Below, in pieces: positions 1,453 to 19,633 of a stretch of 24,162 nt of DNA. The notes under the pieces were generated by a model. That model was not told the DNA's origin, did not search any database, and was given only the letters and a program-made list of their open reading frames with translations. Positions within the stretch are counted from its first letter, which is position 1; every line of letters starts with the position of its first letter. Source of the stretch: a virus; IMG/VR virus record IMGVR_UViG_3300026534_000093, positions 1 through 24,162 of that record, one strand, 5' to 3'. The translations under genes were made by a program, and so were the position numbers.

Positions 1453-3660
1453 CTACTGCAAAGTTGCCTTAACTTCACTGTACAAAGCTTGGAGTTCTCC
1501 CATACCCATATCTAGGATCGGCTCGTACATAAAAGCGTTTATGTGAATGTTTGCCGGAGTGATCAAATTAACCCGGCGGAGCAGACCAATTTCCTGGGTC
1601 TGATTGTTAAACTGCTCTTTGAAAGTCTGGAACAAGTCTCCAGTCTGCTTCTGGGCTATATCATAATCCGGCTCGTTGGCGCGAATTTTCGCGATCATGT
1701 AGCGCTCTGCCCAAATCCTGATCGCTATCGAGAGCACAATCTTTTGCTCTAGATTTACGCCGTCATCGACATTTTCGCATGCGTCAGCGGTAGCGAAGAT
1801 ATAGTCAAGAATTCGGTCATCTAGGGAGACCTCAGGAAAACTGCAGTTCGGTAGATTTCTTTCAAAAACGGCCTTGTAGTCGCCAACGGTAAGGGTGTCC
1901 GTCTCGTCCTTGAAGTGCAGCATCCTAGTGAGTTGCAGGTAGTCATTGTTGTCGTTCCCTTCGGCATCTTTGCTACCCAAGGTGTACTCGATTACATTCC
2001 GCAAGAACGGGATATAGGCGATCAAGACAGGTGGCTCGGTCAACCGATTTTGCCATTTATGAAATGGGCTTTGAATGTCCGACTGCTTGAAAGGCTCTAG
2101 CTTGATCCCGGCTTCTGAACGGAACGCCAACCTACACTGGTGGGCAGGGCAGATTTTCCTGCTTGCGACCGTTCGCAAAAAATCGAAGTTATGCGTCAGG
2201 ATGATCGCAATGAAATTGCTGTCCTCTACCTTTGTTACGTCTTCCAAGAAGTCGATGATCGCGAACTTGTTTTTGTAGTCAAACGAGTCCGAAATATCAT
2301 CGAATATGAAGAGCGTCCTCCTGCGTTCTTTCCACCGGACGTAGACTTCGTACATGATGTCCAAGATATACAGCGCTCGACTCTCTCCAGTGCTCAGAGC
2401 GCGAAGTAGCTCCTGCTTTTCGGAGGGAGCATATCGTCGTTCGTCGTCAGCATCTCGAACGACAAAGCCAACAGAAGGAGCAATGCCCTTCAGGATTGCA
2501 TCGGCCTTGTTTTCAACGAAGAGTTCAAATGGAAGGTACAAGAAACGCCGGTTGAAATCCGCAACAACTTCGTCCCAATCGCCTCTTCTGCCTTCTGCCT
2601 CTGAGATGATTTCGGCGAGGGCTTGCTGGCCGGCTCGGTACTCCGAAACCAGCGCTTTGTATTCGTCGCTTGCTGCCAACAGGTATTGTATCCACAACTT
2701 CCGCTTCAAGCTTTCCGGATCACTAAGCATTGGCAGGAGGTGCTTGTTGTCGGTGATATAATCCCGAAAGGCCTGTAGCTCCTTATTCTTGAGCTTGGCA
2801 TTAAAGGCATCGAATCTCTTCGCCACCTCTTCATCGCTGAGAATCCGAAGCTTTTCTTCTACGATGCGCTCTTTGAGAGATTGATCGGATGAAACCTCCT
2901 CCAACGCATCAGACTTTTCGTCAAAGAGACTGATTTTATGTCCGGCACTGAAGAAGTTGTTCGCCTCAAGCTGTTGCTGGACCTGTGTTACATTGTGGTA
3001 CTGGAAATCCCTGCGGAGAATTGGAGATTGTTCGGTAATCTCGTCGTACTTTTTTGCAAAATCCTCTATAGATGCCGCGACATCTTCGGCCGCCAGAAAC
3101 TGCTGGACCTTCGGATCAAACAAGATTTTGAAGTTCGCGTTGGAAAGGCTCGACGGCTGCGTTTCACTTAGCTCATCCTCGATGCCAACTAGCGCGTCAT
3201 AGTAGCTTCCGCCAAAAAGGCTTTCAACAATTGGCTCAATGTTCTCACGCGACCTTTCACCAAACCCAGCTTGGCGTTTGAGACTTTTGTCCAAGGACTT
3301 TTTGGCTTCACCGATAGACCGATGAATTTCATCGTACCTTTTTCTAAGTCCGGCGTCCGCAAGTAGTGTGGCGATCTGATCGGAAGCAAACTTTTCGTCA
3401 TAAGACCTGACAACAAAGATCTCTTCTTTCTTTATCGCTTCGCCATTCAGCGTGACTTCGAAGATGGGCTCTCGCTCGGGGAAGTGAAGGTCCTTGGGTG
3501 TCTTCCCGTTTGAAATGTCCATCATCGTCTTCGCAAGCGACGTTTTCATGACCCCGTTGGGGGCGTAAATCGCAAAACCTCTGTGCTTGAACTCCAGCTC
3601 CGCCTCCAATTTTGTTATTCCATAACAATATCTTAGATTGAACTTAAGCTTATCGGCCAT
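1453..3660 (-). CDS. AAA_13-type (PrrC/RloC-like) ATPase, probable anti-phage cargo
   Basis: A 735-aa P-loop protein with an SMC/ABC-like layout. Walker A is at residues 33-42 (APNGVMKTSL) and is non-canonical: the glycine before the lysine is Met. A long charged, helix-rich insertion covers about 90-370. The ABC-like signature LSTGES is at 422-427, Walker B with D-loop FIFDDISDSFD at 451-461, and a switch histidine (ILTHNFDF) at 490. This order is that of AAA_13 proteins, which include the tRNA-cleaving PrrC and RloC. The C-terminal 200 residues end in a conserved-looking IHINAFMYEPILDMG (705-719) and may hold the effector; I do not recognise a nuclease motif. ATG 3660 has an AGGAGA site 6 bp upstream. 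The gene is visibly poorer in GC than its neighbours and sits between attL and the integrase, both signs of recently acquired cargo. The ATPase call is firm; the defence role is inferred. Confidence 0.85.
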   Translation of the reverse strand: MADKLKFNLRYCYGITKLEAELEFKHRGFAIYAPNGVMKTSLAKTMMDISNGKTPKDLHFPEREPIFEVTLNGEAIKKEEIFVVRSYDEKFASDQIATLLADAGLRKRYDEIHRSIGEAKKSLDKSLKRQAGFGERSRENIEPIVESLFGGSYYDALVGIEDELSETQPSSLSNANFKILFDPKVQQFLAAEDVAASIEDFAKKYDEITEQSPILRRDFQYHNVTQVQQQLEANNFFSAGHKISLFDEKSDALEEVSSDQSLKERIVEEKLRILSDEEVAKRFDAFNAKLKNKELQAFRDYITDNKHLLPMLSDPESLKRKLWIQYLLAASDEYKALVSEYRAGQQALAEIISEAEGRRGDWDEVVADFNRRFLYLPFELFVENKADAILKGIAPSVGFVVRDADDERRYAPSEKQELLRALSTGESRALYILDIMYEVYVRWKERRRTLFIFDDISDSFDYKNKFAIIDFLEDVTKVEDSNFIAIILTHNFDFLRTVASRKICPAHQCRLAFRSEAGIKLEPFKQSDIQSPFHKWQNRLTEPPVLIAYIPFLRNVIEYTLGSKDAEGNDNNDYLQLTRMLHFKDETDTLTVGDYKAVFERNLPNCSFPEVSLDDRILDYIFATADACENVDDGVNLEQKIVLSIAIRIWAERYMIAKIRANEPDYDIAQKQTGDLFQTFKEQFNNQTQEIGLLRRVNLITPANIHINAFMYEPILDMGMGELQALYSEVKATLQ

Positions 3661-8296: not shown

Positions 8297-8325
8297 TTGA
8301 CTCGATCTGCACCGCTCGATAAAAT
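8297..8325 (+). promoter_or_regulatory. Sigma70-type promoter of the defence operon
   Basis: TTGACT (8297-8302), a 17-bp spacer, then TAAAAT (8320-8325): five of six consensus matches in each box with ideal spacing. The expected start site is about 8332, giving a 25-nt leader before the ATG at 8357, with AGAGGA as ribosome site. The surrounding 168 bp is AT-rich against GC-rich neighbours. Confidence 0.8.
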
Positions 8326-8345
8326 TCTGTAATTCTTGTTACAGA
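8326..8345. promoter_or_regulatory. Dyad operator candidate over the transcription start
   Basis: TCTGTAA-N6-TTACAGA is a perfect 7-bp dyad directly after the -10 box, covering the expected start site. This is where a repressor or restriction-modification control protein would block transcription. RhuM or the prophage repressor could bind it; no binding partner is identifiable from sequence. Confidence 0.55.
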
Positions 8346-8356
8346 GGATTCCCCCC

Positions 8357-8950
8357 ATGCGGCTCGGCGAGCTTTGCGACATTCACTCCGGTTATACCGC
8401 ACGCGGCAGGCTCGAGCCGCGACCAGATGGCGGCGTTCCTGCATTGCAGTTGCGCGACGTGAGCACCAGCAGCGAAATCCCGGGGACAGACGTGCAGCGA
8501 TACGACCTGGGCGATCTTCCCGATCGGTACTTCGTGAGAGGAGGCGAGGTGGTGTTTCGCTCGCGCGGCAAGCCCAACACCGCCGTAGCAATTCCCGACG
8601 ACCTGCCCGAACCCATCGCCGTCATCGTGCCGCTAGTCATCATCCGTCCTGACCGTGCGCGCATCCTGCCGGACTACCTTGCCTGGGCCATCAATCAGCC
8701 GGCCGCGCAAAGTGCGCTGGGGGCCGGTGCGCAGGGAACCAGTCTCAGGATGATTCCCATGGCCTCCCTGGAACGGCTCGATGTCCCAGTGCCCGATTTT
8801 CAAGCGCAACGGCGAATCGTTGCGCTCAGCGCCCTCGCGACGCGCGAAATGCAGCTCCTGCAAGACCTCGCCGTGAGACGCACCCAATACATGAGCGTAA
8901 TACTCGAACAGGCCGCCCGCGCCACCGAACACAAGGACATTCCCCGATGA
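8357..8950 (+). CDS. Half-length type I restriction specificity (S) subunit
   Basis: A 197-aa protein with one target-recognition domain (about 1-145: MRLGELCDIHSGYTARG, VPALQLRDVS, GEVVFRSRGKPNTA, PDYLAWAINQP) and one helical conserved region (about 148-190: IPMASLERLDVPVPDFQAQRRIVAL plus the coiled-coil tail). Ordinary HsdS has two such units in about 400 aa; that full-length form is encoded separately at 11466. Half-S proteins are known to work as dimers. The frame runs back to TTG 8336, but ATG 8357 with AGAGGA upstream is preferred. It overlaps hsdM by 4 bp. It could alternatively be a decoy or modulator of the main S subunit. Confidence 0.85.
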   Translation: MRLGELCDIHSGYTARGRLEPRPDGGVPALQLRDVSTSSEIPGTDVQRYDLGDLPDRYFVRGGEVVFRSRGKPNTAVAIPDDLPEPIAVIVPLVIIRPDRARILPDYLAWAINQPAAQSALGAGAQGTSLRMIPMASLERLDVPVPDFQAQRRIVALSALATREMQLLQDLAVRRTQYMSVILEQAARATEHKDIPR

Positions 8951-10464
8951 CCGACCAGATCACCCAAGACCAGGTCAACAACGCTGCATGGGCGGCCTGC
9001 GATACCTTCCGCGGCGCCGTCGATCCGGCGCAATACAAGGACTACATCCTGGTGATGTTGTTCCTGAAATACATCTCGGACCTCTGGAACGACCACGCCG
9101 AGGCCTACCGCAAACAATACGGCGAGGACGAGATCCGCATCCGCCGCCGGCTGGAGCGGGAACGCTTCATCCTGCCCGAAGGTGCCAGCTTCTATGACCT
9201 CTATGCCCAGCGCAACGAGCCCAATATCGGCGAACTCATCAACATCGCGCTGGAGCGGATCGAGGACACCAACCGCGCCAAGCTCGAGGGCGTCTTTCGC
9301 AACATCGACTTCAACTCCGAGGCCAATCTGGGCCGCCCCAAGGACCGCAACCGTCGCCTCAAGAACCTGCTGGAAGACTTCCACAAGCCCGCGCTCGACT
9401 TGCGCCCGTCGCGCATTTCCGAAGACCTCATCGGCGAATGCTACATCTATCTGATTTCCAAGTTCGCCTCGGACGCCGGCAAGAAGGCGGGCGAGTTTTA
9501 CACCCCCGCCGCCGTCTCGCGCCTTCTGGCAAAGCTGGCGGGTCCACAGCCCGGCAACACCATCTGCGACCCGGCCTGCGGCTCGGGCTCGCTGTTGATC
9601 CAGGCATCGCAGGAGGTCGGATCGGACAACTTCGCCCTCTACGGGCAGGAGGTGAACGGGGCGACCTGGGCGCTGGCGCGGATGAACATGTTCCTGCATG
9701 CCCGTGACGCCGCCCGCATCGAATGGTGCGACACGCTCAACAGCCCGACGCTGGTCGAGGACGATCACCTGATGCGCTTCGACGTGGTGCTGGCCAACCC
9801 GCCCTTCTCCCTCAAGAACTGGGGCGCCGAGAATGCCGAGAACGACCCGTGGAACCGCTTCTGGCGCGGGGTGCCGCCCAAATCCAAGGGCGATTACGCC
9901 TTCATCACCCACATGATCGAAATCGCCAAGCGCCAGTCGGGTCGCGTGGCGGTGATCGTGCCCCACGGGGTGCTCTTCCGCGGCGGGGCCGAGGGGCGCA
10001 TTCGGCAGAAGCTGATCGAAGAAAACCTGCTCGATGCCGTGATCGGCCTGCCTGCGAACCTGTTCACCACCACCGGCATCCCCGTGGCCATCCTGATCTT
10101 CGACCGCGCACGCGAGGAAGGCGGGGTACGGGAGGGTGTGCGCGACGTCCTCTTCATCGACGCCAGCCGCGAATTCACGCCGGGCAAGAAGCAGAACATC
10201 CTCGAGGATGCCCATATCGACAGAATCGTGCAGACCTGGCGGGACCGTGCCGAGGTCGAGCGCTATTCTCATCGTGCAACGCCCGACGAAATCGCCGAGA
10301 ACGGCTACAACCTCAACATCCCGCGCTATGTGGACACCTTCGAGCCCGAGGAGGAAATCGACGTGGCCGAGATGCAGAAGGAGATCGACAGGATCGAGGC
10401 GGAACTGGCCGAGGTGCGGACCAAAATGGCGGGCTATCTGAGGGAGCTCGGCGTCGATGTCTGA
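8947..10464 (+). CDS. hsdM: Type I restriction-modification methyltransferase subunit HsdM
   Basis: A 505-aa N6-adenine methyltransferase that, with HsdS, methylates the recognition site and joins HsdR for cleavage. The N-terminal HsdM_N helical domain covers about 8-150. The SAM-binding motif DPACGSGS is at 208-215 and the catalytic NPPF at 284-287, preceded by FDVVLA. The C-terminal helix (EIDRIEAELAEVRTKM) probably packs against the S coiled coil. Length and motif order are normal for the family. The start overlaps the half-S stop by 4 bp, and the stop overlaps rhuM by 8 bp, so translation is coupled throughout. Confidence 0.97.
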   Translation: MTDQITQDQVNNAAWAACDTFRGAVDPAQYKDYILVMLFLKYISDLWNDHAEAYRKQYGEDEIRIRRRLERERFILPEGASFYDLYAQRNEPNIGELINIALERIEDTNRAKLEGVFRNIDFNSEANLGRPKDRNRRLKNLLEDFHKPALDLRPSRISEDLIGECYIYLISKFASDAGKKAGEFYTPAAVSRLLAKLAGPQPGNTICDPACGSGSLLIQASQEVGSDNFALYGQEVNGATWALARMNMFLHARDAARIEWCDTLNSPTLVEDDHLMRFDVVLANPPFSLKNWGAENAENDPWNRFWRGVPPKSKGDYAFITHMIEIAKRQSGRVAVIVPHGVLFRGGAEGRIRQKLIEENLLDAVIGLPANLFTTTGIPVAILIFDRAREEGGVREGVRDVLFIDASREFTPGKKQNILEDAHIDRIVQTWRDRAEVERYSHRATPDEIAENGYNLNIPRYVDTFEPEEEIDVAEMQKEIDRIEAELAEVRTKMAGYLRELGVDV

Positions 10465-11473
10465 AGGCGAAATCATCCTCTATGCCACGGAGGACGGCGC
10501 GGCCGAGATCCAGCTTCGCGCAGTTGACGGCACGGTGTGGCTGTCGCTAAGCCAGATGTCCGATCTGTTTGGTCGTGACAAGTCCGTGATCTCTCGCCAC
10601 ATCAAAGCCATTCTGGACGATGGCGAACTGAACCCGGATTCAGTTGTTGCACGCTATGCAACAACTGCCGCTGATGGAAAAACCTATCAGGTCGATCACT
10701 ATCGGCTCGAAATGATCCTCGCCGTCGGCTATCGGGTGCGATCCCCGCGCGGGGTGCAGTTCCGCCGCTGGGCCACCTCGGCGCTGAAGGAATATCTCGT
10801 CAAGGGCTTCGTCATGAATGACGAACGCCTGAAGGACCCCGCATGGGATTACTTCGACGAGCTGCTTGAGCGCATCCGCGACATCCGCGCGTCCGAGGCC
10901 CGGTTCTATCAGAAGGTGCGCGACATCCTGGCGCTTTCCGAGGATTACGACCCGAAATCATCCGCTGCGCCGGAATTCTATGCGAAAATTCAGAACAAGA
11001 TGCTCTATGCCGTCACCGGCCACACGGCGGCGGAGCTGATCCGCGAGCGCGCCGATCCGGCAAAGCCCAACATGGGGCTGACCACATGGAAGGGCGCGCG
11101 GGTGCGCAAGGGCGACGTGAGCACGGCCAAGAACTATCTGGGCGAGGCGGAAATCCGCGAACTCAACCTGATCGTCACCATGTTCCTCGATACCGCCGAG
11201 CTGCGCGCCAGCCGCCGCCAGACCATGCGCCTGGACGAATGGGAAGGCGTGCTGGACAATTTCCTGCGTTCCAACGAACTGCCGCTCTTGCGCAATGCCG
11301 GGACGGTATCGCAGGCACGCGCCAAACAGATCGCCCACGCCCGCTATGCCGCCTTCGATGCCCGGCGCAAGGAGGCGCGAAGGGCCGAAGCCGAAAAGAC
11401 GGACGAACTGGAGGAACTCAAGCGCATCGCCAAGGCCGCCGAGGGACGTGGAAAGGGGGCGCGGGATGGTTGA
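10457..11473 (+). CDS. rhuM: RhuM family protein
   Basis: A 338-aa protein of the RhuM family, named after a Salmonella SPI-3 gene and often found inside type I restriction operons; its biochemical role is not established. The N-terminal HTH-like segment (about 28-55: WLSLSQMSDLFGRDKSVISRHIKAIL) and the strongly conserved YQVDHYRLEMILAVGYRVRSPRGVQFRRWAT (77-107) are diagnostic. The C-terminal half is helical and ends in a charged coiled coil (ARRKEARRAEAEKTDELEELKRIAKAAE). It overlaps hsdM by 8 bp and hsdS by 8 bp. A DNA-binding or regulatory role is likely from the N-terminus; it may be a candidate ligand of the dyad at 8326. Confidence 0.92.
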   Translation: MSEGEIILYATEDGAAEIQLRAVDGTVWLSLSQMSDLFGRDKSVISRHIKAILDDGELNPDSVVARYATTAADGKTYQVDHYRLEMILAVGYRVRSPRGVQFRRWATSALKEYLVKGFVMNDERLKDPAWDYFDELLERIRDIRASEARFYQKVRDILALSEDYDPKSSAAPEFYAKIQNKMLYAVTGHTAAELIRERADPAKPNMGLTTWKGARVRKGDVSTAKNYLGEAEIRELNLIVTMFLDTAELRASRRQTMRLDEWEGVLDNFLRSNELPLLRNAGTVSQARAKQIAHARYAAFDARRKEARRAEAEKTDELEELKRIAKAAEGRGKGARDG

Positions 11474-12659
11474 GGGGTGGCAAAAGGCTTCAATCGGTGA
11501 GATTGGCACGGTTGTTACCGGAACAACGCCGGCAACTGCGTCGAAGAATTACTATGGCGGCGACATCCCGTTTGTAGCGCCCGGCGACCTTGGGAATGGC
11601 TTGTGGGTCCGAAGCGCGGAAAAGACATTAACAGAAGAGGGCTTCCGCGCGGCGAAACCATTGTCCGAAGGCGCGGTTCTGTTCACCTGCATTGGCGCAA
11701 CGATTGGCAAGGCGGGTATTGCGGCCAGACCTCTTGCAACGAACCAGCAGATTAACGCTGTTATCTGCGACCCGGAGCGTGCCAACAACCTGTTCATTTA
11801 TTACCTTCTTGCCCTGCGCGCGGAGTCGATCAAGCGTCTTGCCGGAGCACAAGCTGTTCCGATAGTAAACAAGTCCACTTTTGAAGACGTAACCGCTCCA
11901 CTCCCCCCCCTCCCCGAACAGCGCAAGATCGCCGCGATCCTGCGCACATGGGACGAGGCCCTCGAAAAGCTCACCAAACTGCGGGAGGCGAAGAAGCGGC
12001 GGCGGGTCTGGTTCCGCACCCACCTTTTCACCGGAAAGGTTCGGCTCCCCGGCTTCTCCGGCGAGTGGCGGGAAGTCCGGCTGAGCGAGGTTTTGCATGA
12101 ACACCGCCTGAAATCGAGTGGCGCGGAAGAGGTCTATTCGGTTTCCGTCCACAAGGGGCTGGTGAACCAGATCGAGCATCTGGGCCGGTCCTTCTCGGCC
12201 GCCAGCACGGAGCATTACAACCGCGTTCTGCCGGGCGATGTCGTCTACACGAAAAGCCCGACGGGGGATTTCCCGCTCGGCATCATCAAACAGAGCAAGA
12301 TCGACCGCGAAGTCATTGTCTCGCCCCTCTATGGCGTATTCACGCCGAGGACCGACGCGCTCGGCGTGATCCTGGACGCGTTGTTCGAGTCGCCCGTTGC
12401 CACGAAGAACTATCTGCGCCCCCTTGTGCAGAAGGGCGCAAAGAACACCATCGCCGTGACCAACAGCCAGTTCCTTGAAGGCAAGCTGCGCCTGCCGATG
12501 GACCCTGAGGAACAGGCGGCAATTGCCGAGGTCGTGAACACTTCGAACACGGAACTCACCCTCATCGACGCCGAAAGCGAGGCCCTAACCCGCCAGAAAC
12601 GCGGGCTGATGCAGAAACTGCTGACGGGGCAATGGCGGGTGAATACGGGGGTAGCGTGA
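11466..12659 (+). CDS. hsdS: Type I restriction specificity subunit HsdS, full length
   Basis: A 397-aa S subunit with the standard TRD1-CR1-TRD2-CR2 plan: TRD1 about 1-145, CR1 with PLPPLPEQRKIAAIL and helix to about 190, TRD2 about 195-340 (VRLSEVLHEHRL, GDVVYTKSPTGDFPLG), and CR2 with MDPEEQAAIAEVV to the end (GLMQKLLTGQWRV). It sets the bipartite DNA target of the HsdM and HsdR complexes. ATG 11466 lies inside the rhuM stop region (8-bp overlap). The stop TGA shares its last base with the Shedu start. The TRDs do not look alike, as expected of an asymmetric site. Confidence 0.95.
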   Translation: MVEGWQKASIGEIGTVVTGTTPATASKNYYGGDIPFVAPGDLGNGLWVRSAEKTLTEEGFRAAKPLSEGAVLFTCIGATIGKAGIAARPLATNQQINAVICDPERANNLFIYYLLALRAESIKRLAGAQAVPIVNKSTFEDVTAPLPPLPEQRKIAAILRTWDEALEKLTKLREAKKRRRVWFRTHLFTGKVRLPGFSGEWREVRLSEVLHEHRLKSSGAEEVYSVSVHKGLVNQIEHLGRSFSAASTEHYNRVLPGDVVYTKSPTGDFPLGIIKQSKIDREVIVSPLYGVFTPRTDALGVILDALFESPVATKNYLRPLVQKGAKNTIAVTNSQFLEGKLRLPMDPEEQAAIAEVVNTSNTELTLIDAESEALTRQKRGLMQKLLTGQWRVNTGVA

Positions 12660-14062
12660 TGGTGTTGGGCTATCGTGAACACGATCCGAACCGCGACGGA
12701 ATTCTGGAGGTCGATCAGATCGGCGCCGACAAGGTTGACGTGTTCTTCGTGCCGCCGGAACGCAGTTTGATTGGTGCGGGTTTAGATCCGCAAAAGGCAT
12801 ACAATCATCGCACCAAACTACTTGAGATCGACGGAAAAGATGACAAGCTCACGATCTTTCCAATTTGCACTTTCGCCGATAGAGACGACTTTCTGAAGCC
12901 GAAATACGAGCAGATTGAACGGATCACTTTGGAGGGCAAAAGATTCTATGGTGGCTTGCCGTCCAGGCCCGACGAAATCCTGGATCTGCTCGAGGGGCTG
13001 CCGCCTGCATTTACCAAGGACTATTCTTATGGTCTGGGCCTTGCGAAACCGTATCGTTTCATCATTGATGCAATCGAAGATCTGACTGACTGCACCGAGA
13101 TCGTTATCAGCGGAACGCGAGACACTGGATCCGCATCGAACGGCAAGATCTTCTACATTTCTCGGAAGGATTTCGAGCGCGCACGCCGCTCCATGAACAG
13201 CATTGGCAACTTGGCGCAGGCGGCAGTGCGAGAAGTCCGGAGGGTTGCCGCCTACAACATCTTTGCTAAAAGCGTGGGCATGGATTCGGTTGAGCCCAAG
13301 CTGGGCCGCCATCCGTACCGGAAACTCTTCACAACGATCGCGCAAGGCAAGGAGCAGCTCTCTGAAGAAGAGCAAATGGCCATCCTGCGAGCGATGAGCA
13401 ATCATGCGGCCAAACTGGCCGAGAAAGAGCCTGAAAAGCTCGCCAAGCTTCGCGGTGACATCGAACTGGTAACACTTGAAACGCTGATCCAGCAGTATGA
13501 AGCAATGTTGAGCAAGAAGCTTGCCGAGAACGATTGGCAGGAGTTCTTTGACGAGAACCCTTTCATCCTGAACTTGGCCTTCGGATACCCGGTCATCAAA
13601 GTCCGCGATCAAGCATCAGTCGGCGGGTGGAAGCTGTCTGGGGACGGCGAAAAAATCACTGACTTCTTGGTAAAGAACAGCCTGACCAACAACACCGCAA
13701 TTTTCGAGATCAAGAAGCCCCAGACGCCAGTTCTCAACAAGCGACCGTTCCGAGAGGGCGTCTTTACTCCTTCGGCAGACCTTTCCGGCTCAATCAACCA
13801 GGTGCTTGATCAGAAATATCAATTCCAGAGACAAGTCGCGCAGATCAAGGAAAATTCCCGGCTCTATGACATCGAGTCCTATGCGGTTCACTGCTGCCTC
13901 GTCGTCGGAACGACGCCAGAGGGTGAGGACCGGAAGAAATCATTCGAGATGTTTCGCAGAAATTCGAAGGATGTGGAGATCGTCACATTCGACGAACTTC
14001 TCGAGAAGCTGAAACAACTGGCGGATTTCCTCCGCACAGCAGATGAGGAGGAAGCCGAATGA
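12659..14062 (+). CDS. Shedu (SduA-like) DUF4263 nuclease
   Basis: A 467-aa protein whose C-terminal part is the DUF4263 PD-(D/E)XK nuclease fold of the Shedu anti-phage family: W293-QEFFDEN, D335 in ITDFLVKN, E350-I-K352 in AIFEIKKP, then SGSINQVLDQK with Q381. The N-terminal 270 residues are an accessory, probably sensing or oligomerisation, region (IIDAIEDLTDCTEIVISG) of the kind that varies among Shedu proteins. Translation starts at a TGATG junction with hsdS and ends in an ATGA overlap with the DUF3800 gene. GC is lower than hsdM, so it may have been inserted later. Shedu is normally described as a single-gene system; its location inside a type I operon is unusual. Confidence 0.88.
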   Translation: MVLGYREHDPNRDGILEVDQIGADKVDVFFVPPERSLIGAGLDPQKAYNHRTKLLEIDGKDDKLTIFPICTFADRDDFLKPKYEQIERITLEGKRFYGGLPSRPDEILDLLEGLPPAFTKDYSYGLGLAKPYRFIIDAIEDLTDCTEIVISGTRDTGSASNGKIFYISRKDFERARRSMNSIGNLAQAAVREVRRVAAYNIFAKSVGMDSVEPKLGRHPYRKLFTTIAQGKEQLSEEEQMAILRAMSNHAAKLAEKEPEKLAKLRGDIELVTLETLIQQYEAMLSKKLAENDWQEFFDENPFILNLAFGYPVIKVRDQASVGGWKLSGDGEKITDFLVKNSLTNNTAIFEIKKPQTPVLNKRPFREGVFTPSADLSGSINQVLDQKYQFQRQVAQIKENSRLYDIESYAVHCCLVVGTTPEGEDRKKSFEMFRRNSKDVEIVTFDELLEKLKQLADFLRTADEEEAE

Positions 14063-14757
14063 AATTCGAAGTCTACTGCGATGAGACGCTGCCCGATCTC
14101 TTCACCTCGCAGCACCCGCAGGCGCGCTACCTGATGATCGGCAGCCTATGGCTGCCCGCCGATCTGCGCGAGACGGCAAAGGACCGCATCGCCGAGTTGC
14201 GCCAGCGCCACGGCGTGCATGGCGAGATGAAGTGGCGCAAGGTTTCGCCCTCCAAGCTGCAATTCTACACCGATCTCATCGATCTGTTCATGAGCTTCGG
14301 GCTCGACCTGCGATTCCGCTGTATTGCAGTGGATCGTGAGGCTATGAACCTGGATTTGCACGATGGCGACGCAGAGCTTGGCTTCTACAAGTTCTATTAT
14401 CAGGTTCTGCACCACTGGATTCTGGACCTGAACGAATACACGATCTTCTGCGACCTCAAGCACAACCGCGACCGGACGCGGCTTGCGACGCTCCGGCGGG
14501 TACTGAACAACGCCAACCGGACATCGATCATTCGTGACGTCCAGTCGCTCCCCTCGCCCGAGGTGGTGCTGCTTCAGCTATGCGACGTGCTACTTGGTGC
14601 GGCCTCGGCGCGGATAAACGCGCTCAGCGATCTTGGGCTGGCAAAGAAAAGCGTGATCGCACATCTTGAAAGCCGCCTTGGGCGCAGGCTAGGGCCGACG
14701 CACAAGGCGGAAGAGAAGTTCAACATCTTCCGAATTCGTCTGGGAGGCGGATGGTGA
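14059..14757 (+). CDS. DUF3800 family protein (predicted RNase H-like fold)
   Basis: A 232-aa protein matching DUF3800, a family seen in phages and defence loci and predicted to have an RNase H-like nuclease core. Candidate acidic residues: D8-E9 in VYCDET at the first strand, E56 in HGEMKWRKV, D132 in IFCDLKHNRD and D176 in the family-typical LLQLCDVLLGAASARIN. The start is an ATGA overlap with the Shedu gene, so both are translated together. No experimental function is known to me for the family; a nucleic-acid cutting effector is the most economical guess. Confidence 0.85.
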   Translation: MKFEVYCDETLPDLFTSQHPQARYLMIGSLWLPADLRETAKDRIAELRQRHGVHGEMKWRKVSPSKLQFYTDLIDLFMSFGLDLRFRCIAVDREAMNLDLHDGDAELGFYKFYYQVLHHWILDLNEYTIFCDLKHNRDRTRLATLRRVLNNANRTSIIRDVQSLPSPEVVLLQLCDVLLGAASARINALSDLGLAKKSVIAHLESRLGRRLGPTHKAEEKFNIFRIRLGGGW

Positions 14758-15212
14758 TGCCGCCATTACTGAAACTGCCCGATCAGGCAGCCTACCGCAC
14801 ACACTATGAGCAAACGCTTTGCCGGGGCGGCATCGCTACCCATGACGGGATTCCGGTGTTTTTCCGCAAAAGCGAATTCGACCACGCCTTCTTTGAAAGC
14901 TCCGACCGTAGAGGGGCGAACGACGTGTTCTCGCTGGAGCGGGCCATGCGGATGGACTGGATTCCCGCCGCGCTGGCTGACCCGGCTGCCGGTTGCTTTC
15001 AAGGTTGGGACCGGCAAAAGAGGCGTTATGACCCAACACGCCGGGTTGCCGTCGTCGTCGATGATTTTGTCATCGTCATCGGCATCAGGCAAACGCGTCG
15101 CAGCACCCTAAAAGCGAATTTCATCACCTGTTATCAAGCCGATAACAGCATCGGGAAAATTCTCCAGTCACCCCGCTGGACCTTGCAGGAGTGCCTGAAT
15201 GCGTTGCGTTAG
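14757..15212 (+). CDS. Unknown 151-aa partner of the DUF3800 protein
   Basis: Not assigned to a family with certainty. The ATG at 14757 forms a TGATG junction with the DUF3800 stop and has GGAGG 9 bp upstream; ATG 14751 (two codons earlier, only 3 bp from GGAGG) is the alternative. Visible features: THYEQTLCRGGIATHDGIPVFFRKSEFDHAFFE near the N-terminus, an R..RMDWIPAAL segment, then strands VAVVVDDFVIVIGI and KANFITCYQAD-SIGKI-SPRW. The final 'aNFiT-Y-ad...I...P.W' resembles the end of BECR-fold RNases (Barnase-EndoU-ColicinE5/D-RelE), making a toxin-like RNase or a partner of DUF3800 plausible. That similarity is from memory and weak. Confidence 0.7.
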   Translation: MPPLLKLPDQAAYRTHYEQTLCRGGIATHDGIPVFFRKSEFDHAFFESSDRRGANDVFSLERAMRMDWIPAALADPAAGCFQGWDRQKRRYDPTRRVAVVVDDFVIVIGIRQTRRSTLKANFITCYQADNSIGKILQSPRWTLQECLNALR

Positions 15213-15339
15213 GGAATTAGGGACGCTGATTTGCTACGCTGGCTCAGCGTCCGAAGCCTCGATAGGTTCACGGCCGCTGGGCAGTGAACTCAATGCAGAT
15301 ATGGTCATTGTATGGCTCAAAAGTCAAGGACTCCCTAAC
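15208..15339. other. Structured gap in the defence operon
   Basis: The only real gap in the operon (15213-15386) contains a 9-bp inverted repeat, GGACGCTGA (15221-15229) and TCAGCGTCC (15244-15252), with a 14-nt loop and no T-tract. An outer 8-bp pair GTTAGGGA/TCCCTAAC (15208-15215, 15332-15339) encloses it. No promoter with good boxes is obvious. It may act as an RNA structure that lowers hsdR expression or stabilises the mRNA, or it may be the scar where Shedu-DUF3800 cargo was inserted. Confidence 0.4.
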
Positions 15340-15386
15340 AGGCAGTTCCGTACACATTGGCCGCACCCGACAGCGGGAGCACGCCC

Positions 15387-18300
15387 ATGACCTTCAACGC
15401 TGCCGAGAAATACCAATCGCAGATCCCCGCCCTGCAGATGCTGGTGGGACTGGGCTTCACGCCGCTCAGCCAGGAGGACGCCCTGCGACTGCGCGGCGGG
15501 CGGCTGCGCAACGTTGTGCTCGACGACGTGCTGGCCGACCAGTTGATGCGGCTCAATCGCTTCACCCATCGTGGCCGAGATTATGCCTTCGACCTCGAGG
15601 ACGCGCATGAGGCGATGCGGCGGCTCAAGCCCACCCCGGACCGGCTCAAGGGGCTGCGCGGCACCAACCAGGACATCTACGATACGCTGCTTCTCGGCAC
15701 CACGATCACCAAATCGATCGACGGGGATTCGAAGAGCTATTCCTTCCGCTACATCGACTGGGAAAATCTGGCGAACAACGTCTTTCACGTCACCGCCGAA
15801 TTTTCGGTCGAACGGACGGGGTCGAGCAGCACGAAGCGTTGCGACATCGTCGCCTTCGTCAACGGCATCCCCGTTCTGGTTATCGAGAACAAGCGCCCGA
15901 CCGAAAGCCTGAAGAAGGCTGACAGCCAGTTGATCGGCTATCAGAAAGAGGACAACATTCCGCATCTCTTCCACTTCGCACAATTGCTTGTGTCGATGAA
16001 CCGCGTCGAGGCGCGCTACGCCACGGTGGGGACGCCACGCAAGTTCTGGCAGACTTGGCGCGACGAAGAAGACCGGGACGAGGATATATCACCAATCGCC
16101 AACCGTCCCTTGTCCGAGCCGGAAAAGGCCGCAATCTTCTCAGGCGATTTCGCACATGCCCGCCACTACTTCGACGAGATGACCGCCGAGGGTGCACGGG
16201 CGGTGACGCCTCAGGATCGCACCATCTACGCCCTGTGCCGACCTGAACGGATGCTTGATCTGATCCGGCGTTTTACCGTCTTCGACGGCGGCGAGAGAAA
16301 GATCGCACGTCATCAGCAGTTCTTCGGTATCCGCCGGGCGATCGAGACGGTCCGGCAGTTCAATCCGGATGGATCGCGCAAGGGCGGCGTGATCTGGCAC
16401 ACACAGGGCTCCGGCAAGTCGCTGACGATGGTCATGCTGGGGCGCGCCCTGGCGCTTGAGCCCAATATCGAGAACCCACGCATTCTGATCGTCACCGACC
16501 GCGACGATCTCGACAAGCAGATCAAGGGCACCTTCAAGTCCTGCGACATGGAGCCGGTGCGCGCCACGAGCGGCTCCAATCTTCTCGAACTCATCCGGAA
16601 CAGGACGCCGCTCATTACAACGATCATCAACAAGTTCGACACGGCGTTGCGCCACAGCGCCTCTGCCGACGAGGATCCCAACATCTTTGTTCTGGTCGAT
16701 GAGAGCCACCGCAGCCAGACCGGCCGCTATGGAGGGCACAGCCAGTTCGCCACCAAGATGCGCCGCCTGCTGCCCAAAGCCTGCTACCTGGGCTTCACCG
16801 GCACACCTTTGCTGAAGAAGGAAAAGAACACGCTGTCGACCTTCGGGCGGCTGATCCATCACTACAAGATCGACGAGGCCGTCGCAGATGGGGCCGTGGT
16901 TCCACTCCTTTACGAGGGCCGGCTGGTTGAGCAGCAGGTGAGCGGCGGCGTCATCGACACATGGTTCGAAAAGATCAGCGAGGGGCTGACCGATAGCCAG
17001 AAAGCTGACCTGAAGCGCAAGTATTCCCGCATGGATGCACTGGCCAAGACAGACCAGGCGATCCGCGCCAAGGCTTTCGACATCTCCGAGCATTACCGTC
17101 AACACTGGCAGGGAACCGGCTTCAAGGCGCAGCTTGTTGCACCGTCCAAGGCCGCGGCCGTGAAATTCAAGGAAGTGCTGGACGAGATCGGCCATGTCTC
17201 GAGCGAGATCATCATCTCGCCGCCTGACGAGAATGAAGGCAACGAGGAAGTTGATCAGGAATCCAAGGACCTGGTGCGCCGCTTCTGGTCCAGGATGATG
17301 GACCGCTACAAGACCGAGGACGCATACAACAAGCAGATCATCGATGCCTTCAAGGGATCAGGCGATCCGGAAATTCTGATCGTCGTGTCGAAGCTCCTGA
17401 CCGGCTTTGATGCGCCGCGCAATACGGTGCTCTACGTTTGCAAATCGCTCAAGGAGCACAACCTTCTTCAGGCAATTGCACGGGTGAACAGGCTTTTCGA
17501 GGAAGGTGGGATCGAGAAGCAGTTCGGTTTCATCATCGACTACGAGGGGCTGCTCGGCGAACTGGACAGCGCCCTGACGACCTACAGCGCTTTCGAAGAC
17601 TACGATCCCGCCGACCTCGCAGGTACGGTTCACGACATCAAGGAAGAAATCCGAAAGCTGCCCCAGCTCCACGACCAGCTTTGGGATTTGTTCAAGCCAG
17701 TGCGCAACAAGAAGGACATGGAGCAGTTCGAACAGCTCCTTGCGGATGAGGCGCTCCGGCAGGAGTTCTATGCACGCCTGAAGGCTTTCAGCCGCTGCCT
17801 GCACATCTCGCTTTCGTCGGACAAGTTGTTCGACGTTCTCGACGAGGCGAGAATCGACGCCCTGAAGCGCGACTGGAAGCAGTTCTCCGAGCTCAAACGC
17901 TCGGTGCAGCTGCGCTACCAGGAAACCGTGGATGTCCGCGAATTCGAGCCCAAGATCCAGAAGCTTCTGGACGACCACGTCGTTGCGATGCCGGCCGAAA
18001 CCATCATCGAGGTCGTGAACATCAACGATCCGGATGCGCTGAAGGCCGTAGTCGAGGAAACGGGCGTGTCGGAAGCATCGCGCGCGGACCGGATCGCCAG
18101 CGCAACCCGAAAGGTCATCACCGAAAAGATGGATGAGGATCCGACCTTCTACAAGCAGTTCTCGGAACTGCTCGAAGAAACGATCCGCGCCTATCGGGAA
18201 AAACGGCTGTCCGAGCGAGACTATCTCGGCCGTGTCGTTGATCTCGCCAGCAAGGTTGCGCGGAGAGACCGCGGCAGGGACGTTCCCGCATCCATCCGGC

Positions 18301-18602
18301 ACGACGACGATGCGCAGGCATTGTTCGGGATTCTTGACGGGCAGATGAAGGACCGGACTGGCCAGCCCGTCACAGGCGGCGATGCCGCCGAAATCGCGGT
18401 TGAGATCATCGACATCATCAAGGGTCACCTCATCGTCGACATCTGGTCGAACGACGTGGCGCAAAACAATCTTCGCAACGCCATAGACGACTATTTCTTT
18501 GATGTGCTCCGGGATCAGAAGGGCATCGATCTTAACGTGGATACCCTCGATGAACTCGAACTCAGGATCATGAATCTGGCGCGCGCACGGTTCCCGGCAT
18601 GA
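15387..18602 (+). CDS. hsdR: Type I restriction endonuclease motor/nuclease subunit HsdR
   Basis: A 1071-aa R subunit, normal length, that translocates DNA using ATP and cuts it at a distance. The N-terminal PD-(D/E)XK nuclease has D153 and E167-N-K169 (RCDIVAF, VLVIENKRP). The SF2 motor has Walker A TQGSGKSLT (339-347), DESH (438-441), GFTGTP (469-474) and later LLTGFDAP and QAIARVNR (motifs V and VI). The C-terminal helical domain that contacts HsdM covers about 780-1071. ATG 15387 is chosen because GGGAG precedes it by 8 bp and the family begins near 'FNAAEKYQSQ'; upstream codons to 15357 look untranslated. It overlaps the next gene by 4 bp. Confidence 0.97.
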   Translation: MTFNAAEKYQSQIPALQMLVGLGFTPLSQEDALRLRGGRLRNVVLDDVLADQLMRLNRFTHRGRDYAFDLEDAHEAMRRLKPTPDRLKGLRGTNQDIYDTLLLGTTITKSIDGDSKSYSFRYIDWENLANNVFHVTAEFSVERTGSSSTKRCDIVAFVNGIPVLVIENKRPTESLKKADSQLIGYQKEDNIPHLFHFAQLLVSMNRVEARYATVGTPRKFWQTWRDEEDRDEDISPIANRPLSEPEKAAIFSGDFAHARHYFDEMTAEGARAVTPQDRTIYALCRPERMLDLIRRFTVFDGGERKIARHQQFFGIRRAIETVRQFNPDGSRKGGVIWHTQGSGKSLTMVMLGRALALEPNIENPRILIVTDRDDLDKQIKGTFKSCDMEPVRATSGSNLLELIRNRTPLITTIINKFDTALRHSASADEDPNIFVLVDESHRSQTGRYGGHSQFATKMRRLLPKACYLGFTGTPLLKKEKNTLSTFGRLIHHYKIDEAVADGAVVPLLYEGRLVEQQVSGGVIDTWFEKISEGLTDSQKADLKRKYSRMDALAKTDQAIRAKAFDISEHYRQHWQGTGFKAQLVAPSKAAAVKFKEVLDEIGHVSSEIIISPPDENEGNEEVDQESKDLVRRFWSRMMDRYKTEDAYNKQIIDAFKGSGDPEILIVVSKLLTGFDAPRNTVLYVCKSLKEHNLLQAIARVNRLFEEGGIEKQFGFIIDYEGLLGELDSALTTYSAFEDYDPADLAGTVHDIKEEIRKLPQLHDQLWDLFKPVRNKKDMEQFEQLLADEALRQEFYARLKAFSRCLHISLSSDKLFDVLDEARIDALKRDWKQFSELKRSVQLRYQETVDVREFEPKIQKLLDDHVVAMPAETIIEVVNINDPDALKAVVEETGVSEASRADRIASATRKVITEKMDEDPTFYKQFSELLEETIRAYREKRLSERDYLGRVVDLASKVARRDRGRDVPASIRHDDDAQALFGILDGQMKDRTGQPVTGGDAAEIAVEIIDIIKGHLIVDIWSNDVAQNNLRNAIDDYFFDVLRDQKGIDLNVDTLDELELRIMNLARARFPA

Positions 18603-19315
18603 CTGCGGATGTTCACCGGCTCGAATACGGTCAGCAAGAGATCATTTACCGGATCGTCCGGCGTCCGCGCGCGACCCTTGAAATAGCCGTCGAACCGGAT
18701 GCCTCAGTGGTTGTTGCCGCCCCCATGGATGCGCCTTTGAAGTCCATCGAGGCGAAGCTGAGGAAGCGCGCATCCTGGGTGATCCGGCAGCAGCGATACT
18801 TCTCGCAGTTTCTGCCCCGAACGCCAGAACGGCGCTACATCGCCGGCGAAACGCATCTGTATCTGGGGCGCCAGTACCGGCTGAAAGTCGTCCCGCATGT
18901 CCAGGAAAAGGTCAAACTCCTGAGGGGCTTCATTGTGGTGCAAACCCACCGACCGAGCCGTGCCGAAATCACGCGTGAACTCGTGGATACTTGGTATCGT
19001 GGGCGGGCCCATATCAAGTTTCCGGAGCGAGTGGAGGCATGCCTTGGACGTTTCCCGAACTCGGAAATGTTCCGTCCCAAAAGTCTCATCATTCGCCAGA
19101 TCAAACAGCGCTGGGGTTCGATGTCTCCGTCCGGCCGCCTTCTTTTGAACCTGCGACTGATACAGGCGCCAGTGGATGCGATCGATTACGTGATCACCCA
19201 CGAACTCTGCCACATGGCCGAACCCCATCATGGCCCGGCATTCTTTCAACTGCTGGAGAACGTCATGCCGGATTGGGAGCGAAAAAAACATCGGCTGGAA
19301 CGTGCAATGGCATAA
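18599..19315 (+). CDS. YgjP/SprT-like zinc metallopeptidase
   Basis: A 238-aa protein of the YgjP (DUF45, M48-like) family. Motifs: the WGS signature at 172-174 (QRWGSMSPSGRLLLNLRL), zinc-binding HELCH at 201-205 with E202 catalytic, and a third ligand, probably H211 in PHHGPAFF. Proteins of this family are frequently encoded next to hsdR, but their role there is unknown; controlled turnover of HsdR or of stalled DNA-protein complexes is possible. It starts in an ATGA overlap with hsdR. It is the last gene before the terminator. Confidence 0.92.
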   Translation: MTADVHRLEYGQQEIIYRIVRRPRATLEIAVEPDASVVVAAPMDAPLKSIEAKLRKRASWVIRQQRYFSQFLPRTPERRYIAGETHLYLGRQYRLKVVPHVQEKVKLLRGFIVVQTHRPSRAEITRELVDTWYRGRAHIKFPERVEACLGRFPNSEMFRPKSLIIRQIKQRWGSMSPSGRLLLNLRLIQAPVDAIDYVITHELCHMAEPHHGPAFFQLLENVMPDWERKKHRLERAMA

Positions 19316-19512
19316 GAACGTCCAACCACCAAGGAAACGAACAACACCGCCCCAGAATTGCAGCGAAGGGTTGCGTGGACACGCCCCGAAGCTATTCGAC
19401 ATACAGTATCTTCGCGGAGGCGATCCATGAGCCACCATTCAGCATCCATTTTAATACGATACCATTGACAACCCTGCCCCTCTTGACTCATACATTCACC
19501 ATCGAAGATTAG

Positions 19513-19542
19513 CGCCCGCAGGAAACCCTCGCGGGCGTTTTT
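19513..19542 (+). terminator. Rho-independent terminator of the defence operon
   Basis: CGCCCGC (19513-19519), an 11-nt loop and GCGGGCG (19531-19537) form a perfect 7-bp GC stem followed by TTTTT. It lies 197 bp after the metallopeptidase stop. The intervening 19316-19512 stretch holds no gene I can support, only a 13-codon frame at 19428 with a GGAGG site. Confidence 0.85.
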
Positions 19543-19633
19543 CTTTGCACCCCCCACCTTGGGTCCTCCCGGGCCGCAATCGTATACGGGGGGGCTTGGC
19601 GCGGTGTTTCGCTAGCGACAGGGTGTTGTTTTG

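Follow-up and report, generated by a model that had tools for sequence, protein, structure and literature searches.

We propose that PDC-M04, a candidate defence that PADLOC describes as two proteins (M04A and M04B), acts as a protein-RNA toxin-antitoxin system, and that bacteriophages counter it with mimics of its RNA. The pair was studied in a viral DNA stretch of 24,162 bases (IMG/VR record IMGVR_UViG_3300026534_000093; hereafter the window means this whole stretch), where it lies in a nine-gene operon built around a type I restriction-modification system. The existence of a small RNA gene beside M04B is well supported by sequence comparison, and the RNA accompanies M04A/B at every examined locus where the pair occurs. 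We infer the role of the RNA from its distribution and from predicted protein folds, which incline us, by somewhat better than an even chance, toward the toxin-antitoxin interpretation. The elements concerned are the following.

14059..14757 (+): DUF3800 protein, PDC-M04A (PADLOC, 244 bits), predicted RNase HII-like fold
14757..15212 (+): 151-residue protein, PDC-M04B (PADLOC, 211 bits; modest fold match), possible BECR-fold (colicin D/RelE-like) ribonuclease toxin
15221..15291 (-): small RNA of about 71 nucleotides with two hairpins, recognised by comparison, proposed third component of PDC-M04
15298..15327 (-): small-RNA promoter, TTGACT, 18 nucleotides, CATATC (8 of 12 positions)

A small RNA gene accompanies M04B

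Alignment, across ten loci, of the gap between M04B and hsdR (174 base pairs in the window) revealed a conserved block, which was present in each of the 21 M04 loci first collected and which, read on the minus strand, gives an RNA with two hairpins. Counting the window, the RNA lies directly 3' of M04B at 23 of 23 loci identified independently of the RNA, through M04B, HsdR or PADLOC models; these are the 21 loci plus L138 and L139, found with the divergent M04B model PDLC04363, both of which carry the RNA. Together they span four proteobacterial classes and Chlorobi; carriers include Rubellimicrobium thermophilum (L011) and Phyllobacterium zundukense (L004). Both sides change in 7 of the 21 base pairs, and 417 of 420 cells in the alignment are paired; none of 500 shuffles reached four of the five covariation measures, and 10 reached the fifth (pair types). 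RNAalifold agrees with the pair count, and sliding destroys the signal. A set of 26 further sequences, mostly from phages, shows covariation in 13 of 21 pairs, in an alignment fitted to the model.

A sigma-70-like promoter match occurs upstream of the predicted 5' end of the RNA in all 21 loci, with 8-12 of 12 positions (mean 9.1), compared with a shuffled mean of 6.3, the highest of 500 shuffled means being 7.05; in the window this promoter ends 6 nucleotides before the predicted 5' end. The 3' hairpin resembles a terminator in some relatives, with clear T-runs after it in L013 and in the Chlorobi loci. The minus strand is also indicated by G-U cells, which outnumber A-C cells 10 to 2. The plus strand was rejected, as the upstream promoter match there is at shuffle level (5.95 of 12) and A-C mispairs would replace the G-U pairs. 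We also rejected a small protein (frames of 63-92 residues): the conservation runs through third codon positions and the stems covary, so the block encodes an RNA and not a protein. It is a single, non-repeated RNA on the strand opposite to M04B; its unpaired core is nearly invariant, and no stretch varies in the manner of a guide. Rfam, including its DUF3800 RNAs, gave no match at E 5 for the window RNA or at E 10 for that of L136.

Among the chassis loci tested, the RNA occurs with M04

A calibrated model of the RNA (R1) was tried on 36 loci. It scored 83-102 bits in the 7 that have M04 and at most 17.2 bits in the other 29, which are chassis loci lacking M04 (the chassis being the type I gene cluster described below). 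Four plasmid stretches without M04 gave no R1 match at E 0.1. Across 385 alphaproteobacterial genomes R1 found three matches; two of the genomes (G006 and G100) have M04, and the third, G358, read on its hsdR side, has an HsdR of the window's type alongside. Among 274 gammaproteobacteria there were eight matches, four with M04A/B, one with a 58-residue remnant of M04B and three without M04. Both of these large genome searches used stricter filters, with which weak matches are lost. The three chromosomal copies without M04 lie at L159:8108-8186, L160:9919-9997 and L162:10033-10111, near N6/N4 DNA methylase, ResIII, SLFN/AlbA or SIR2 genes; two are near N6/N4 DNA methylase genes and one is near SLFN/AlbA and SIR2.

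Phages carry the RNA without the proteins

We searched IMG/VR with a 24-base pattern taken from the 3' half of the RNA. All 29 contigs found in this way match the model (weakest 49 bits, with one copy cut by a contig end), and 23 of them have no M04 beside the RNA; the other six, which include the L002 and L003 contigs, carry M04A/B. Four more contigs came from a second pattern; all match the model and show no M04 in the stretch covered. The M04B model, which recovered 14 of 14 known carriers, found nothing in 25 whole phage records (the 23 contigs and two named phages), although many virus records are fragments, in which absence of M04B is no proof, and certain contigs nearly duplicate others (L114/L128, L116/L130). 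Portal, terminase, sheath or primase genes were recognised in nine of the ten viral contigs tested for them.

Since the pattern picked out the IMG/VR RNAs by their 3' half, the constancy of that half is not independent evidence. In the 5' half, which lay outside the first pattern, every letter of the linker GAGG is conserved in 21 or more of 22 phage rows, and the stem letters covary. A blastn search of 50,697 records, a method insensitive for this RNA, yielded two phages confirmed by the model. Sphingobium phage Lacusarx (entered twice) has the RNA at 66 bits, unannotated, 780 bases before its tmRNA gene, and Bacteriophage DSS3_MAL1 has it at 53 bits between two tRNA genes; both phages carry the matching RNA in sequence that is unannotated. 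Three weak blastn matches in phages or plasmids (L143, L144, L145) were rejected for want of a model match, and further weak rows (Turba, S-CAM3, Gordonia, Tsukamurella and others) lie outside the model test. In the IMG/VR set, a tRNA gene lies within 150 bases of the RNA at 4 of 26 loci, where 0.4 would be expected (P about 4e-5).

The two proteins

The predicted model of M04A has a mean predicted local distance difference test (pLDDT) score of 82 and matches RNase HII with Z 11.1 over 162 residues (Foldseek E 8.9e-6), and so the protein is predicted to have an RNase HII-like fold; Argonaute entries are included among the weaker matches that follow. M04B was modelled with pLDDT 91. Its structure matches are listed in 44 rows, and the first 25 of these all concern toxins, toxin-antitoxin systems or toxin-immunity pairs, among them colicin D, contact-dependent inhibition, RelE, YoeB, HigB, ParE and others, which we take to share the BECR fold. 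The top rows, colicin D and a Salmonella toxin-antitoxin complex, reach Z 5.5, the best value obtained, with the program's own warning that a Z below 8 may mean a common arrangement only; moreover, the listing does not tell which chain of an entry is the toxin. Six residues of M04B (H43, E47, R62, R65, W68 and W141) are invariant in 17 sequences and may form an active site. From the modelled structure, M04B is possibly a ribonuclease toxin of the BECR fold, similar to colicin D or RelE.

A proposed switch and its alternatives

We suggest that PDC-M04 has three parts: M04A, M04B and a convergent small RNA under a promoter of its own. This RNA would bind the ribonuclease pair and restrain it, as ToxI does ToxN. 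Infection would lower or titrate the RNA, for example through the shut-off of host transcription, and the freed nuclease would then cut RNA, perhaps tRNA, and so stop the phage. Phages that supply the RNA in trans, sometimes from beside their tRNA genes, would keep M04 off by mimicry. Shedu, which is encoded just upstream in the window, would work on its own, perhaps at DNA ends that result from HsdR action, a speculation drawn from the end sensing of some Shedu proteins reported in the available portion of PMC12409362. We favour an RNA antitoxin with phage mimics because M04B was never seen without the RNA, the RNA was often seen without M04B, the fold of M04B is toxin-like and some phage copies lie beside tRNA genes. 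The proposal in its full form is that PDC-M04 represents a new class of protein-RNA toxin-antitoxin defence, in which a 71-nucleotide two-hairpin RNA restrains an RNase HII-like protein and a colicin D/RelE-like tRNase, with a widespread and hitherto unrecognised family of phage RNAs, sometimes within tRNA arrays, as natural antidote; this we hold tentatively, at a little under an even chance.

Several observations weigh against the proposal, in addition to the limits on the M04B matches and on the viral sample given above. Toxicity, antitoxin activity and transcription of the RNA are all predictions from sequence. Foldseek finds no match for M04B at E of 0.001 or below, and M04A may itself be a nuclease, or the antitoxin. 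The folding energy of single sequences is weaker evidence: of six sequences, three have z near -3, two have z between -1.7 and -1.8, and L016 has -0.8. The window lacks a T-run after the 3' hairpin. In 23 copies of the RNA without M04, the upstream promoter signal is weak (7.0, against 6.1 when shuffled and 6.8 for the highest of 500 shuffled means). On the three gammaproteobacterial chromosomes where no M04 lies beside it, the RNA may be a relic or may serve different partners. In addition, the RNA is kept where M04B has an in-frame stop (L015) or split frames (L017, L018).

The RNA may instead be a required cofactor or guide, with which M04A (RNase HII-like and distantly PIWI-like) and M04B assemble into a ribonucleoprotein that recognises phage nucleic acid, the phage copies being inactive decoys in competition for the two proteins. 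DUF3800 proteins are associated with putative non-coding RNAs and with a Cas12a2 branch in the accessible part of PMC10910872, the Argonaute entries matched by M04A point the same way, and decoys in phages would be compatible with this alternative as well. The RNA shows no variable stretch of the guide type, however, its unpaired core being nearly invariant, and the toxin-like fold of M04B, if right, favours restraint of a toxin; we regard a cofactor or guide as unlikely, albeit deserving of attention.

It is less probable still that the RNA is primarily a regulatory RNA of phages, detected or degraded by M04, with the copy at the defence locus a captured self-marker or an autoregulator. The orphan phage copies are numerous and diverse, some adjoin tRNA genes, and the stems vary more in the mostly-phage set than in the M04 set, all of which would suit such an origin. 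Nevertheless, no M04B locus examined lacks a copy of its own, and the phage copies look sporadic, with two confirmed phages among the blastn records (given the insensitivity of blastn, and with the weak hit in Turba outside the model test).

The initial annotation suggested a possible layered defence, in which modification status or HsdR failure releases a second nuclease; Shedu or the DUF3800 protein would then be set free once HsdR or modification is lost. The overlapping genes and the recurrence of RhuM-hsdS-Shedu would agree with this, as would the report, in the text of PMC12409362 available, that some Shedu proteins sense free DNA ends. Each cargo is nonetheless found without the others and outside the chassis, and we found no supporting evidence that modification status or HsdR failure frees a second nuclease; the idea is very improbable. 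That the RNA is a mere cis-antisense or terminator element tuning hsdR expression from the polycistronic message is scarcely credible and already contradicted, for all that it lies antisense within the M04B-hsdR gap, by its persistence with M04A/B where no hsdR is seen after them (L016, L161, L163) and by its presence alone in phage records.

With the RNA, a candidate defence of two proteins turns into one of three parts, whose proposed switch can be tested; should the toxin-antitoxin reading prove right, a function would follow for some of the unknown small RNAs that adjoin phage tRNA genes.

The operon in its phage

The window is an IMG/VR virus record. Beyond the operon its genes have matches in the integrase, excisionase, O-like replication initiator, ParB/methyltransferase and small terminase families, and the operon is therefore most likely carried as cargo by a temperate phage. 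Outside the operon, upstream of the integrase, a 735-residue ATPase-like protein (1453-3660, -) matches the PADLOC candidate PDC-S46 with 790 bits. The remaining features of the operon are listed here.

8297..8325 (+): sigma-70-type promoter of the operon, TTGACT-17-TAAAAT, 10 of 12 consensus positions
8357..8950 (+): half-S, a 197-residue type I specificity protein with a single target recognition domain (PADLOC PDLC03199, E 3.1e-19)
8947..10464 (+): HsdM, N6-adenine methyltransferase (family scans)
10457..11473 (+): RhuM family protein, PADLOC PDC-S05, slot-1 cargo (family scans)
11466..12659 (+): HsdS specificity subunit (single Pfam Methylase_S match, full-length PADLOC match)
12659..14062 (+): Shedu nuclease SduA, slot-2 cargo (PDLC00384, 564 bits)
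15387..18602 (+): HsdR, type I restriction motor/nuclease subunit (family scans)
18599..19315 (+): YgjP/SprT-like zinc metallopeptidase, fixed part of the chassis (family scan)
19513..19546 (+): terminator-like hairpin with T-run (read from the sequence)

The nine genes that the initial annotation placed on one strand between 8297 and 19543 are all present on the plus strand, and family scans agree with its naming of HsdM, RhuM, HsdS, Shedu, DUF3800, HsdR and YgjP. With HsdM, HsdS and HsdR genes all present, the type I restriction-modification gene set is complete. Half-S is matched by PADLOC type I specificity models, and weakly by MADS5, with no match in Pfam. Shedu matches Pfam PF14082 at 103 bits, through its C-terminal PD-(D/E)XK nuclease domain, and PDB entry 8ti8 at E 7.5e-30. 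The description needs amending at three points. Overlaps of 1-8 base pairs between neighbours hold at seven of eight junctions, given start codons for HsdS (ATG 11466) and Shedu (ATG 12659) taken from the reading frames, but M04B and HsdR are 174 base pairs apart. The single promoter and single terminator are both visible, and to them the M04B-HsdR gap adds an RNA gene and promoter on the opposite strand. Finally, the 151-residue protein thought to be unknown is the one that PADLOC lists as PDC-M04B, a candidate defence protein. The terminator at 19513-19546 has a GC stem of 7 base pairs and a loop of 11 bases, followed by TTTTTCTTT; a terminator program whose loop limit is 8 made no call within 19300-19600.

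A chassis with two cargo slots

Sequence comparison resolves the operon into a chassis (half-S, HsdM, HsdS, HsdR and YgjP) with two cargo slots, which in the window hold RhuM (slot 1) and Shedu with the M04A/B pair (slot 2). HsdR relatives were sought in the 385 alphaproteobacterial genomes, 28 of which have a match at E 1e-60, and in 390 genomes of one order, 26 of which have a match at E 1e-150; 32 chassis regions were compared, better matches first, 10 from the former and 22 from the latter. The cargo comparison leaves out L021 (G358), L024 (G076), L028 (G377), L033-L046, L048, G732, G507 and G681, and G006 is L010. Slot counts were made by eye from frames of at least 60 residues, and one member of each cluster of similar cargo proteins was scanned.

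A YgjP-type peptidase gene lies directly 3' of hsdR in 32 of 32 regions, and no such gene directly follows hsdR in the distant HsdR families (L013, L164). That YgjP/SprT might serve as an operon-encoded restriction-alleviation protease is a testable idea. The hsdS-hsdR interval holds extra genes in 23 of 29 readable regions and none in six (L079, L089 and L102 were unreadable). The cargo found was as follows.

Slot 2, M04A/B: L076, L093, L099
Slot 2, Kiwa: L074, L101
Slot 2, DUF3800 alone: L075, L080, L083
Slot 2, DUF6119: L081, L084, L088
Slot 2, protein kinase and unknown protein of 164-191 residues: L082, L085, L086
Slot 2, PDC-S16 with PDC-S21: L087
Slot 2, PDC-S34: L077
Slot 2, dGTPase: L095, L097, L098, and L094 with DUF3800
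Slot 2, unnamed genes: L078, L096, L100
Slot 1, RhuM (7 of 32): L074, L077, L078, L086, L087, L090, L105
Slot 1, GIY-YIG protein (PDC-S14): L004
Slot 1, PDC-S13: L014

Some of these loci merit separate mention. The serine/threonine kinase of L082 (6234-7879, -), L085 and L086 is PD-T4-6-like, and with its recurring partner of 164-191 residues it is a candidate two-gene defence. DUF3800-only cargo has a convergent RNA-like element of its own (L083:4750-4819, -; also L080, L075 and L094), which in L083 resembles the Bradyrhizobium small RNA BjrC68 at 32.6 bits, below the threshold of 39. Among seven close chassis loci (L002, L005-L008, L010, L011), half-S is 67-91% identical as opposed to 31-62% for HsdS, a pattern suggestive of one constant and one exchangeable specificity. 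Upstream of hsdM in L095, L096, L097, L100 and L101, half-S is replaced by a protein of 144-170 residues that by eye resembles a helix-turn-helix regulator.

The composite order recurs: L005 has the full operon order, with 84-94% identity except for HsdS (36%), and L006 has hsdS-Shedu-DUF3800-M04B-hsdR without RhuM, its Shedu being 58% identical and its HsdM and HsdR 86-87%. Related Shedu proteins occur in 98 plasmid records, of which four were opened; three plasmids (Roseicitreum, Methylocystis and Neotabrizicola) carry half-S-HsdM-RhuM-HsdS-Shedu-X-HsdR-SprT, with X a DUF3800 protein in one of them and a HAD hydrolase in the other two. The combination is a real and recurring composite, so the case in which its linkage would have been accidental, with Shedu, DUF3800 and the 151-residue protein next to hsdS in this lineage alone and apart everywhere else, does not hold. 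The notion that Shedu and the DUF3800 pair form one fixed system with the restriction enzyme is not supported, as each cargo also occurs apart. Shedu is missing from most M04 chassis loci seen, and M04A/B are also found next to type I genes of different families, within a conjugative transfer region (L016) and, in the stretch covered, without hsd genes (L161 and L163, the contig of the latter ending about 1 kilobase past M04B). In Pantoea, a Shedu of the window's subfamily stands alone; a scan of viral contigs for Shedu showed no relative. Shedu and M04 are interchangeable cargo modules. On these comparisons, the chassis gathers independent antiviral modules under one promoter, and the interval from hsdS to hsdR, ahead of hsdR-ygjP, is a clean place to seek new defence genes.

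Comparison with known systems

Defence genes embedded in a type I cluster are recurrent and known in kind. In the RRDM island of enteropathogenic Escherichia coli, DarTG2 occupies the hsdS-hsdR interval and an M48 metallopeptidase gene follows downstream (PMC12255303, as excerpted), and in Vibrio cholerae TgvAB is embedded in a type I cluster (PMC12409362, as excerpted). The window resembles both in its embedded cargo, and RRDM also in the hsdS-hsdR position and the downstream metallopeptidase; it differs from them in having two slots, three stacked modules, half-S first, a temperate phage as carrier and other cargo.

According to the portion of PMC12988326 available, the PDC candidates of PADLOC go back to a guilt-by-embedding preprint (Payne et al. 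2024). M04A, M04B and RhuM of the window match the PDC-M04 and PDC-S05 models strongly, and M04A and M04B are adjacent as in PDC-M04. The PADLOC model comprises two proteins, whereas here an RNA gene accompanies the pair at every locus examined and occurs alone in phages. Our literature search found no paper on PDC-M04, the Payne preprint, which could already hold part of this, lying outside the search.

Structured RNAs beside DUF3800 genes are an association stated in the accessible text of PMC10910872, and Rfam names such as DUF3800-I and DUF3800-IX appear in that of PMC11701678. The M04 RNA is like the DUF3800 RNA motifs (Weinberg 2017) in being a structured RNA beside a DUF3800 gene, and unlike the Rfam DUF3800 RNAs in that a covariance-model match is absent. 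Among DUF3800 papers, in the parts available, we found none pairing DUF3800 with this RNA, and Weinberg 2017, outside the search, could hold part.

In type III toxin-antitoxin systems, an endoribonuclease toxin is neutralised by an RNA that consists of tandem repeats upstream of the toxin and on the same strand. M04 shares with these systems an RNA gene linked to the gene of the putative toxin, found at 23 of 23 loci, and with ToxIN in particular a possible ribonuclease toxin, a small structured RNA and phage-borne copies of that RNA. Mimicry of ToxIN by a phage pseudo-ToxI RNA has been described (PMC3475682, in the section available), and if our proposal is true, antitoxin mimicry by phage RNA extends beyond ToxIN. 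M04 departs from ToxIN in its non-repetitive two-hairpin RNA with its own promoter, in its possible BECR-like toxin and in its DUF3800 partner; we have not filed it as type III because its RNA is single, non-repeated and encoded on the opposite strand.

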